A stretch of 64,000 bases of DNA from positions 496,001 to 560,000 of the forward strand of contig NZ_JACETV010000001.1 in the NCBI RefSeq assembly GCF_013912375.1. Direction: 5' to 3'. This document shows, one piece after another, positions 3,024-25,841 of this stretch (the stretch's first letter is position 1; every line of letters starts with the position of its first letter). A program made the position numbers and the translations under genes. The stretch is from Emticicia sp. BO119. GTDB lineage: Bacteria > Bacteroidota > Bacteroidia > Cytophagales > Spirosomataceae. The notes beneath the pieces were generated by a model that was not told where the DNA came from, made no database searches, and saw only the letters and a program-made list of their open reading frames with translations.

Positions 3024-3605
3024 ATGACGACTATTCTTCCCAAAGAATTTTACGAAAAATATGATACGGTTACGCTGTCTAAAAAACTCTTAGGCTGTAC
3101 GATGGTGCATGAAAGCCCGGAGGGGCGTACTTCAGGTATCATTGTTGAAACAGAGGCTTATCTAAGTAATGACCCTGCTTGTCATGCCTATCGAAAAAAA
3201 AGTGCCAGAAATGCCGCCATGTTTGAAGACGCAGGTATTTCTTATGTCTATTTGATTTATGGTATGTACCATTGCTTTAATATTGTGAGTGGTGATAAAG
3301 ATGTGGGTGAAGCGGTGCTTGTAAGGGCTTTGGAGCCTGTAGAGGGTATAGAACTCATGCAAAAAAGACGAGGCACTACCCAATTGAAAAACCTATGCAG
3401 CGGGCCTGCCAAATTGGTAAAGGCGATGGGTATTACTCCCGAGTTCAATTTTTTGCCAGTTTATGATGACGAGTTTTATTGTATTCCACCTAAAGACGAG
3501 AATTTTGAGATTGTTACTACCACGCGCATCGGTATTACCCAAGGAGCTGATTTATTGTATCGGTTTTATATCAAGGGGAATAAATTTGTGAGTAAATTGG
3601 GGTGA
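3024..3605 (+). CDS. DNA-3-methyladenine glycosylase (AAG/MPG family)
   Basis: This monofunctional DNA glycosylase removes alkylated or deaminated purines at the first step of base excision repair. The 193-residue product has the usual bacterial length. The active-site region VETEAYLSNDPACHAYR lies at 41-57: E44 corresponds to the catalytic glutamate, Y46 to the helix-intercalating tyrosine and H54 to the conserved histidine. YLIYGMYHCFNIV follows at 76-88, and RALEPVEG and CSGPAKL are also present. The ATG at 3024 is the only reasonable start. The gene is monocistronic and is followed by a strong GC-rich hairpin that can act as its terminator. Confidence 0.93.
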   Translation: MTTILPKEFYEKYDTVTLSKKLLGCTMVHESPEGRTSGIIVETEAYLSNDPACHAYRKKSARNAAMFEDAGISYVYLIYGMYHCFNIVSGDKDVGEAVLVRALEPVEGIELMQKRRGTTQLKNLCSGPAKLVKAMGITPEFNFLPVYDDEFYCIPPKDENFEIVTTTRIGITQGADLLYRFYIKGNKFVSKLG

Positions 3606-10454: not shown

Positions 10455-12230
10455 ATGGAAAAGTTTGTAGTTTCAGCGCGTAAGTATCGTCCTATTACCT
10501 TCGATGCCGTGGTAGGGCAGTCTCATATCACCACTACCTTGCAAAATGCGATCAGAACCAATCATCTGGCTCAGGCATTTTTGTTTTGTGGGCCACGCGG
10601 GGTGGGAAAAACTACTTGTGCCAGAATTTTAGCTAAAACTATCAACTGCCAGAATTTAGGCGAAGATATTTCGCCTTGTAATGAATGTGAATCTTGCAAG
10701 AGTTTTAATAACAATGCTTCTTTCAATATCCATGAATTGGATGCTGCTTCGAATAACTCTGTAGAAGACATTAGAAACCTGACTGACCAGGTGCGGTTTC
10801 CGCCACAATATGGCAAGTACAAGGTTTATATCATAGATGAGGTTCATATGCTTTCTCAGGCAGCTTTTAACGCTTTCCTGAAAACATTGGAGGAACCCCC
10901 CAGCTATGCTATTTTTATTCTGGCTACCACAGAGAAATACAAAATTCTGCCTACGATTCTGAGCCGTTGCCAGATTTTTGATTTCAACCGTATTCATATA
11001 AAAGATATGGCCGACCACCTGGCCAACGTTGCCAATAAAGAAAGTATCAAGGCTGATTATCAGGCATTAGAACTGATCGCTCAGAAAGCAGATGGTGGTT
11101 TACGTGATGCTTTGTCGATGTTTGACCTTAACGTAACTTTTGCAGCAGGCAATGAATTAACATATCAATCGGTTTTAGATAATCTGCATATTCTGGACTA
11201 TGACTATTATTTCAGAATGACAGATTTTCTATACGGCGGTGACATAGCAGGAGCGTTATTATTATATAACGATGTATTGGAAAAGGGTTTTGACGGACAT
11301 CAGTTTGTAGTTGGGCTGAACGAGCATTTCAGAAACCTGATGGTGAGCAAAGACCAGCAAACTGTGAAGCTTTTGCAGGTAGCTGAATCAACGCAAAGAC
11401 GTTATCTGGAGCAATCAGGTAAACTGCCTTTAGGTTATATTTTATCTTCGTTGAGTGTCGGTAGTCACTTAGATATTAATTATAAATCAGCCAAAAACCA
11501 GCGGCTATACGTGGAGATTGGCTTAATGAAACTTTCGCAGATTCAGCAGGTTCTGAATCTGAGTGAATTATCAGGTAGTACTTCTGACGAAAAAAAAAAC
11601 AGTAATGTAACTCTTGTACCGATTCCACCTCAATCTGGGGTTCAAAATCCGGTTAATCAGCCTGTAAGTGTTACACCTACTGTTACTCAAATACCCCCAG
11701 CTGTACCAGTAACCAGTACACAAGTTAAAAGTAACCCTCCTGTTGTCTCAACACCAAGGCCTAATTTTACGCCGTCAAAGTTTAAATCAACCGATGTTGA
11801 TTTATCGTTGCCTTCTGTTGGCGCACAGACTAATCAGGTGAATGAGCCTGCCATCAATAACTTCGGTACAAATAAAAGCTTTACTTTAGAACATCTTAAG
11901 AAAGAACTTCATCTGTTTGCGGATTTACGTAATAACGCTACGATAGAAGTAATGCTGAAACGTGATTTTGATCTGGTAGACGGACATATCCTTAAACTAA
12001 GGTTGGATAATCAGGTACAGATGGATTTGCTGACACAAATGAAACAGGATCTGGCTGTGTATCTTCGTCAGCAATTGCAAAACTCCAGCATTCAGATTGC
12101 GTCAGAAATTGTTGAGAATCAGCAGGAAAGACGCCCATATACTGCTCAGGAAAAATTTGAATTCCTTGCTAATAAAAACCCAGCTCTATGGGATCTGAAA
12201 GAGAAACTGGGGATGGATCTGGTGTTTTGA
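10455..12230 (+). CDS. dnaX: DNA polymerase III subunit gamma/tau
   Basis: This is the ATPase of the clamp-loader complex, which opens the beta sliding clamp and couples polymerases at the fork. The 591-residue product shows Walker A GPRGVGKT at 46-53, four zinc-ribbon cysteines (C65, C75, C78, C81), Walker B with DEVH at 128-131, sensor 1 ATTEKYK, and the SRC arginine-finger motif in ILSRCQIFDF. Domain III ends near residue 370. It is followed by a Pro/Val/Thr-rich linker (about 385-450) and a tau-type C-terminal domain that would contact the polymerase. At codons 379-382 a run of ten A occurs with stops close by in both other frames, so a shorter gamma form may be made (see the separate entry). 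Monocistronic and convergent with the TPR gene. Confidence 0.96.
   Translation: MEKFVVSARKYRPITFDAVVGQSHITTTLQNAIRTNHLAQAFLFCGPRGVGKTTCARILAKTINCQNLGEDISPCNECESCKSFNNNASFNIHELDAASNNSVEDIRNLTDQVRFPPQYGKYKVYIIDEVHMLSQAAFNAFLKTLEEPPSYAIFILATTEKYKILPTILSRCQIFDFNRIHIKDMADHLANVANKESIKADYQALELIAQKADGGLRDALSMFDLNVTFAAGNELTYQSVLDNLHILDYDYYFRMTDFLYGGDIAGALLLYNDVLEKGFDGHQFVVGLNEHFRNLMVSKDQQTVKLLQVAESTQRRYLEQSGKLPLGYILSSLSVGSHLDINYKSAKNQRLYVEIGLMKLSQIQQVLNLSELSGSTSDEKKNSNVTLVPIPPQSGVQNPVNQPVSVTPTVTQIPPAVPVTSTQVKSNPPVVSTPRPNFTPSKFKSTDVDLSLPSVGAQTNQVNEPAINNFGTNKSFTLEHLKKELHLFADLRNNATIEVMLKRDFDLVDGHILKLRLDNQVQMDLLTQMKQDLAVYLRQQLQNSSIQIASEIVENQQERRPYTAQEKFEFLANKNPALWDLKEKLGMDLVF
11590..11599 (+). other. A10 slippery run in dnaX, candidate gamma/tau switch
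   Basis: Ten consecutive A are read in frame as GAA AAA AAA AAC (residues 379-382), just past the end of domain III. A -1 shift would add K/Q and stop at TAA 11603-11605. A +1 shift would stop at TAA 11608-11610. Either slip, transcriptional as in Thermus dnaX or ribosomal as in E. coli, would give a protein of about 383 residues with domains I-III only, that is a gamma-like subunit. I see no strong downstream stem-loop, which favours transcriptional slippage. The product itself is inferred. Confidence 0.5.
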
Positions 12231-25433: not shown

Positions 25434-25841
25434 TGTTTTGTGAGTTTAATTGTTAATTACTGTATTCGAATTTTTGATAGATTTGAGTGGGTAATGCTAT
25501 TCCTTTGTTTTATGCAGCTATGACGTTTGAGCCTTTTAAAATCGGACAAACCTTGGGATTTTTTTTTAATTATTTTGATGGATTAATGGAGAAGCCTGTA
25601 GTATTTTTAAACTACATTGACCAGGGATTTGCGGGCTATTTTAAAAAGTGGGGAAATGTAAAATAAAAATTAGTAGGGAAGACGTGCTAACATAAAATAC
25701 TTATCTGAGAACAGCACTGGACAGAAAGGCATTGAAAAAAGCAAAGTATGATGATAACTATTAAGTTATGTTTCATCACATGAATATTGTGATAATAATA
25801 ACAGGAAGTAAATGGAATATTAACTATATACAGTAGAAATC
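25434..25841. other. Intergenic region with one short reading frame
   Basis: This 408-base spacer separates the VOC gene from the DUF1801 gene. It is AT-rich and contains a 48-codon frame (listed separately) but no promoter consensus, RNA or repeat that I can support. Confidence 0.5.
25520..25666 (+). CDS. Possible small protein, 48 residues
   Basis: An ATG-to-TAA frame of 48 codons begins MTFEPFKIGQTLG and is rich in F, G and K. It runs opposite to its neighbours and has no recognisable domain or signal peptide. Composition (aromatic, glycine, few rare codons) is more protein-like than the surrounding shadow frames, but nothing else supports it. Confidence 0.2.
   Translation: MTFEPFKIGQTLGFFFNYFDGLMEKPVVFLNYIDQGFAGYFKKWGNVK

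Follow-up and report, generated by a model that had tools for sequence, protein, structure and literature searches.

Transcriptional slippage in the dnaX gene of Thermus thermophilus was reportedly described by Larsen in 2000. The Thermus gene encodes tau in the zero frame and has an A run with close stops in both other frames, which gives gamma-like short products, and the dnaX gene studied here is like it in each of these features, its short products being predicted. This gene lies in the window, by which we mean the whole stretch of 64,000 nucleotides of the Emticicia sp. BO119 genome that was analysed. The two genes differ in that the run has nine A's in Thermus and ten in the window, the phyla are unrelated, and slippage was shown experimentally in Thermus whereas here it is read from the sequence. 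The E. coli dnaX gene, in which a -1 ribosomal frameshift operates, is comparable in its products, gamma beside tau, and in the location of its signal within the gene. However, the E. coli signal has an A_AAA_AAG heptamer, an upstream Shine-Dalgarno (SD) sequence and a downstream stem-loop, and it is the -1 stop that matters, whereas the window dnaX is without the SD and the stem.

The Thermus slippage is described in the available text of two papers (PMC1088944, PMC5009743), the first of which treats a run length conserved among homologs as a sign of purposeful transcriptional slippage. Thermus-type features present in the window dnaX are at least nine A's past the gamma-shared domains, early stops in both frames and a conserved run length. 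The accessible part of Antonov 2013 (PMC3711429) reports 17 two-ORF dnaX genes from 12 genera, nine of them with ten A's and a frame change needed for tau, as well as Chlorobi members with A9, A8 and A7, and proposes transcriptional realignment. Unlike the genes of that set, the window dnaX is single-frame and so falls outside it, and 101 of its relatives have the two-frame layout. The ten-A genera of that study, which are listed in its Supplementary Figure S3, likely overlap with the Bacteroidota. In the part of the literature covered, which extends to the accessible text of that study, we found no report of a phylum-wide dnaX A-run pattern or of a within-family swap. The mechanism discussed below is already known; the points of interest are its breadth, the frequent frame flips and the swap of mechanism within one family.

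The dnaX Gene of the Window

The window dnaX matched NF011531 over its full length (787.3 bits against a cut-off of 685, E 1.3e-236) and TIGR02397 over residues 6-360 (415.7 bits against a cut-off of 250, E 1.6e-124). The match of domain III to PF12169 (E 9.3e-5) scored 22.7 bits, slightly below the cut-off of 24.4 bits. In addition, residues 4-287 matched solved DNA polymerase III gamma/tau chains, e.g., 1jr3_A, a type of chain that we take to be from E. coli. The match to domain III extends to residue 366, about 13 codons short of the A10 run. The sequence around the run is GAC GAA AAA AAA AAC AGT AAT GTA (phase GA/A AAA AAA AA/C), and the zero frame is open through to residue 591, so that tau is in the same frame as gamma (Table 1).

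Table 1. Features of the dnaX locus, with positions in the window.
Feature	Positions	Strand	Basis
dnaX, DNA polymerase III tau (591 aa, zero frame) and gamma (382-385 aa, proposed via slippage)	10455..12230	+	Profile matches
Clamp-loader domain III, residues 244-366, last domain common to gamma and tau	11184..11552	+	PF12169
Slippery run A10, codons 379-382	11590..11599	+	Sequence and conservation in relatives
TAA closing the frame entered by +1 A (A11), product 383 aa	11603..11605	+	
TAA closing the frame entered by -1 A (A9) or +2 A, product 384-385 aa	11608..11610	+	
Tau-only region, variable linker and C-terminal part	11601..12227	+	Same part in shifted frame elsewhere

The initial annotation of this DNA had placed ten A's in frame at these codons, just after domain III, with both shifted frames stopping in 2-4 codons, and the run and both TAA codons were exactly where it had put them; both non-zero frames close within four codons of the run. 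It had also predicted a short product of about 383 residues with domains I-III only, in agreement with the computed products, which were 591 aa (66.4 kDa) for A10, 383 aa (43.2 kDa) for A11, 384 aa (43.2 kDa) for A9, 385 aa for A12 and 382 aa for A8, with all short forms at 43.0-43.4 kDa. Its masses of about 42 and 65 kDa were close to the computed 43.2 and 66.4 kDa, if slightly low.

The neighbors of dnaX, a glyoxalase-like ORF upstream and a TPR-like ORF downstream (names by eye), are on the opposite strand. No other A or T run in the window reaches ten, and a length of nine is reached just once more, by a T9 at 25559. In the whole genome (6.57 Mb, either strand), ten A's occur at 39 overlapping places, counted as 29 separate runs. 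Twenty of the 28 non-dnaX runs were inspected, and 7 of these 20 are in the sense strand of an ORF of at least 100 codons: L408 (A12), L414 (A10), L403 (in a 131-codon ORF) and L409 (near the 3' end) are inside the ORF, and L406, L410 and L419 are no more than about 20 codons from the first possible ORF start. By the same ORF inspection, the remaining 13 are outside such ORFs or antisense. The A12 of L408, in a dacB-like gene (by eye; G000:C12:91861-91872), is not kept in the 10 other genomes of the genus.

Conservation of the Run in the Bacteroidota

Searches for dnaX were made in the genus (11 genomes), family (61), order (118), class (99) and phylum (99), samples that partly overlap, and a scan of named genomes (at least 80 loci) and region fetches provided further genes, giving 358 distinct sequences after repeats were removed. 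A run of nine to twelve A's downstream of domain III was present in 286 of the 358 (A10 in 233, A9 in 30, A11 in 22 and A12 in 1). By sample, A9 or longer was found in 11/11 sequences of the genus (own included), 39/49 of the family, 89/99 of the order, 83/99 of the class, 14/29 of the phylum and 50/71 of the named genomes; outside the window's class, the run was in only 14 of 29 sequences. Counted otherwise, it was present in 244 of 298 coded genomes and in 69 of the 90 family groups fetched, and was absent from all fetched members of the other 21. The A10 of the window is, then, a real and conserved feature. The initial annotation had named an unbroken run in relatives as a check, and this held throughout the genus (A10 in 11/11 genomes), in the 286 sequences of the phylum and in 42 of 62 genes of high GC3 (see below); it did not hold in the 72 of 358 sequences that have no run.

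The length of the run is tightly set. Within codons 345-425 the longest A run of the 358 sequences was 10 in 230, 9 in 29, 11 in 21 and 8 in only 2, with 7-8 together in 11, a two-humped distribution that is nearly empty at 8. In three control segments of these genes the peak was at 4-5, and nine or more A's occurred in just 1, 1 and 2 sequences. The position of the run is narrow (quartiles at codons 369 and 381), and all three codon phases occur (148, 105 and 33 of the 286 runs in phases 1, 2 and 0, respectively). As position is kept while codon phase varies, it is the bases and not the residues that are conserved.

Of the 72 sequences without the run, 13 have a ribosomal frameshift cassette at the corresponding codon and 59 have neither. 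Among the latter, dnaX of Bacteroides, Phocaeicola and other Bacteroidaceae/Prevotellaceae (L077, L085, L101, L104, L106, L107, L111) had no A-run and no clear frameshift cassette past domain III; two of them (L101 and L106) have a G6 after domain III. In a few lineages a run of A10-A12 was seen about 85 codons further downstream in place of the usual site, namely in L084 (codon 461), L109 (463), L170 (457), L289 (463) and L294 (464), likewise with early stops in both other frames.

Conservation at the level of the genus was dropped as proof of slippage, as a run in another gene is equally kept. A GNAT-like gene (by eye; L447, G000:C12:248330-249055, minus strand, and L448-L457) has A10 (9 genomes) or A9 (2 genomes) in 11/11 Emticicia genomes. 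Its run is about 13 codons before the end of the gene, the two A9 copies ending 8-10 codons earlier, and is possibly a second slippage site or just a lysine-rich tail.

Chance and Codon Usage

Taken singly, the window gene is weak evidence of selection, because A10 arose in 37% of draws when its amino acids were kept and its codons redrawn; when its own linker codons were shuffled in order, A10 arose in 0.5%. It is the comparative evidence across relatives that makes the case for a selected run strong. A run of A9 or longer was found in the linker (codons 345-470) of 183 of the 248 single-frame dnaX genes, and elsewhere in these genes in only 3 (codons 1-345) and 5 (beyond codon 470). Synonymous redraw of the 248 genes gave a mean of 78.3 genes with such a run and a maximum of 92 (100 redraws), and shuffling of codon order gave a mean of 21.4 and a maximum of 31. 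Lysine is encoded by AAA at 3202 of the 4707 Lys codons in the N-terminal parts of these genes. Nevertheless, where GC3 was at least 0.6, the run was present in 42 of 62 single-frame genes, compared with a redraw mean of 7.2 and maximum of 14 (200 redraws; codons 345-425). The redraw and shuffle tests together ruled out chance or codon bias as the source of the A-run.

Stops in the Shifted Frames

The stops after the run were analysed in 177 of the 183 genes with tau in frame (those with the run at codon 420 or earlier), with other positions of the same linkers as controls. The median distance to a stop was 1.0 codon in the +1 A frame and 3.7 codons in the -1 A frame, compared with 10.0 and 11.7 at control positions. 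The +1 A frame was closed within 3 codons in 80% of the 177 genes (22% of control positions) and the -1 A frame within 6 codons in 139 of the 177 (31% of control positions). That nearby stops would be conserved in relatives, as the initial annotation had anticipated, was borne out by both shifted frames being closed within 10 codons in 93% of the genes, as opposed to 23% of controls. Early closure of both frames speaks for products in both, as transcriptional slippage would give; a -1 ribosomal frameshift would make no use of the second frame.

Genes with Tau in Another Frame

The 358 genes divide into 183 with tau in frame, 95 in which tau needs +1 A, 6 in which it needs -1 A, 2 cut by a contig end and the 72 without a run, so that the tau part is found in any of the three frames. 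In the 101 two-frame genes, e.g., those of Echinicola arenosa (L053), Nafulsella turpanensis (L052) and Cesiribacter (L065, L067), the zero frame stops soon past the run, which would give gamma, and the tau part is open in a shifted frame. The shifted tails matched tau tails of single-frame genes in 99 of the 101 (E 1e-4), the two without a hit being L373 and L375. A10 is the mode both where tau is in frame (148/183) and where it needs +1 A (80/95). Of the six -1 A genes, three have A11 and three A10, and homopolymer errors in assembly could account for some of these.

Close relatives can differ by a single base. L220 (A10, tau in frame) and L232 (A9, tau needs +1 A) have one genus code, are sisters in the tree and have near-identical context, and L045 and L055 likewise have runs one base apart and flipped frames. 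Otherwise, members of a family group largely agree in layout, with +1 A needed for tau in f18 (7/7), f19 (7/7), f2 (7/8), f4 (7/8), f15 (7/8) and f20 (6/7), and tau in frame in f8 (8/8) and f5 (5/5). A tree of the 358 sequences, made with FastTree from their N-terminal parts, required at least 40 changes of layout, 32 for presence of A9 or longer and 45 for codon phase, numbers that tree error can inflate. The available text of PMC5009743 states that at an efficiency near 50% one nucleotide can reverse the roles.

Ribosomal Signals and a Cassette Clade

In the window dnaX there is no A_AAA_AAG, the C after the run leaving only A_AAA_AAA and A_AAA_AAC. The run is preceded by gtagtacttctgacg, with no SD-like motif, and the 70 nt downstream form no stable structure (-9.8 kcal/mol, z +0.33). 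Across the A-run genes, GGAG or GAGG ended 3-12 nt before the run in 25% of the +1 A genes and 7% of those with tau in frame, and 0-12 nt before it in 33% and 15%, respectively, compared with 1-3% farther than 22 nt upstream; such motifs may act as a weak stimulator of the ribosome, or they may just reflect Glu codons. The mean fold z after the run was -0.49 (60 of 177 genes with tau in frame) and -0.32 (60 of 95 +1 A genes), with controls 100 nt on at -0.27 and -0.31, and the fractions with z below -2 were 0.15 and 0.12, compared with 0.05 and 0.10 of control stretches. The z-scores of these two 60-gene samples gave no evident sign of a general RNA stimulator past the run.

The 13 cassette sequences have a heptamer at codon 379-380 (G_GGA_AAG in 8, A_AAA_AAG in 4 and G_GGA_AAA in L241) and, in all 13, an upstream GGAGG that ends 10 nt before the heptamer in 12 and 7 nt before it in L241. 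Like E. coli dnaX they have an SD and a heptamer, and the 4 with A_AAA_AAG have the very heptamer of that gene. Twelve are of family group f1, namely nine coded genomes and Pseudarcicella hirudinis (L041), a Cytophagales MAG (L042) and Arcicella rosea (L044), each of which has its first 900 bases identical to those of an f1 genome; the thirteenth is an Arcicella MAG (L047). One further f1 genome (L137) has neither run nor cassette. Folds with z below -2 followed the heptamer in 5 of the 13, as against the 0.15 and 0.12 of the two A-run samples.

The stops around the cassette also differ from those around the A-run. In the ten cassette genes with tau in frame, the -1 frame is closed after 0.7-3.7 codons and the +1 stop is at random distance (median 11.3). 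The +1 frame was closed within 6 codons in 1 of these 10, compared with 139 of 177 A9+ genes (Fisher p 1.7e-5) or, in the same family, 24 of 43 (p 0.013). The other three genes (L047, L228, L241) have a zero-frame stop at codon 383 and a -1 frame that is open for 206-247 codons.

In a quick IQ-TREE tree of 67 rows (SH-aLRT only), 12 cassette rows (L044 was left out) formed one side of a branch with support of 97. The deep order of this tree is unreliable, as four outgroup rows from two other families fall inside the A-run side. Given its spread through the phylum, the A-run would be the older state, and the simplest reading of these sequences would be one switch from A-run to ribosomal cassette.

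Probable Mechanism of Gamma and Tau Production

Considering the comparisons above, we believe that the A10 run in dnaX is probably a programmed transcriptional slippage site, and the suggestion in the initial annotation that slippage on the run gives gamma beside tau is supported by the comparison of relatives. RNA polymerase would add or drop A's on the run, producing dnaX mRNAs in all three frames. Those with 10 (or 10+3n) A's would encode full-length tau, and the others would reach a stop in 2-4 codons and encode gamma-like proteins that have 382-385 residues and are confined to domains I-III. Normal translation of this mixture of mRNAs would supply both tau and gamma, each presumably entering the clamp loader. 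In the two-frame genes, we infer that slippage must be of substantial efficiency, because tau would otherwise not be made.

For the A10 genes, the evidence favors slippage by the polymerase over slippage by the ribosome. In the alternative, transcription would be faithful and gamma would come, much as in E. coli dnaX, from programmed -1 frameshifting by the ribosome on A_AAA_AAA or A_AAA_AAC in the run. In favor of this are the A_AAA_AAN heptamer included in every A10 run, the position of tau in the -1 frame in 95 of the 101 two-frame genes, the -1 stop, which of the two comes first in single-frame genes, the enrichment of SD-like GGAG/GAGG shortly before the run (25% of tau-shifted genes), the folds with z below -2 after 15% of 60 tau-in-frame runs (5% of controls), and the ribosomal-type cassettes of the sister clade. 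Even so, we regard this explanation as unlikely, though the ribosome may contribute a share of the slipping, given the heptamer in the run and the GGAG/GAGG before it in two-frame genes. Seven A's would do for a ribosomal heptamer, yet lengths of 7-8 are rare (11/358) and the mode is 10; the early closure of the +1 frame is left unexplained by -1 slipping and is missing from the very clade with ribosomal-type signals; the window gene has neither SD-like motif nor stable downstream fold; and Bacteroidia ribosomes are reported, in the accessible text of PMC9976891, to hide their anti-SD and not to recognise SD sequences. The presence of tau in the +1 A frame (95 genes) and in the -1 A frame (6 genes) is likewise easier to reconcile with transcription than with a ribosome that slips in one direction. 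A run of ten A's agrees in length with the 9-10 bp RNA:DNA hybrid in RNA polymerase. A length set at about 10 also fits the slippage on runs of about 9 described in the available text of PMC1088944.

Two explanations without any programmed slippage are far less credible. Replication slippage could make the run a mutable, phase-variable tract (or assembly error could mimic one), with cells toggling between tau-on and tau-off. The one-base differences with flipped frame in the two pairs of close relatives and the error-prone nature of homopolymers in assemblies would agree with this, but dnaX is essential in studied bacteria and tau-off cells should therefore not persist, ten is the commonest run length in both layouts, and layouts are largely common within the eight family groups listed above. 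The conserved length of the run also counts against it under the view of such conservation taken in PMC1088944, as far as its text was available. We consider a toggling tract very improbable. The run could otherwise be a mere by-product of a lysine-rich linker in AT-rich genomes, with no role in decoding, as the 37% of redraws of the window gene with A10 and the preference for AAA would allow. We give this hardly any credence, as 183 of 248 genes have A9 or longer when redraw yields at most 92 (42 of 62 against at most 14 at high GC3), the length is fixed at ten, both shifted frames close early, and 101 genes would lose tau without a frame change.

Transcriptional slippage thus remains our preferred explanation for the window gene and its A-run relatives. 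Joining it to the cassette clade, we think it reasonably likely, though with less assurance, that ten-A slippage is old and of high efficiency in dnaX of most Bacteroidota, that a genome, since slippage supplies all frames, is free to place either tau or gamma in the templated frame, that the layout has flipped many times, and that one clade of the family of Emticicia has swapped to ribosomal slipping at the same codon. If this is true, a core replication protein in much of a phylum would be routinely made from mRNAs unlike the gene, many apparently truncated or frameshifted dnaX genes would be intact, the one-base flips would form a natural series for measuring slippage in living cells, and transcriptional and ribosomal slipping would have been exchanged within one family. 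Such a swap would pose the question of how an internal GGAGG acts on ribosomes whose anti-SD is said to be hidden, a circumstance that makes the constant GGAGG of the cassette clade puzzling.

Further Observations on Ribosomal Features

As a possible explanation of how the cassette clade could use an SD, ribosomal protein bS21 was surveyed in 16 genomes, of which 2, both of A-run type, gave no sequence by motif. The protein showed no evident break in that clade, its C-terminal Tyr being kept (by eye) in all nine cassette-clade genomes examined. Two patterns for the 3' end of 16S rRNA had no match in the 16 genomes. A strong SD (aaggaggt) is present upstream of rpsU, the gene of bS21, in the window's genome and one congener (L420, L421); it is missing in the nine cassette relatives and equally in the three other A-run relatives that gave sequence.

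In Pontibacter, dnaX (L049-L051) has an A7 at codon 375 with AGGAG or AGGGG upstream and a TAA in the -1 frame one codon on, and the +1 frame is also closed, two codons on. These signals may represent a separate change to ribosomal frameshifting.
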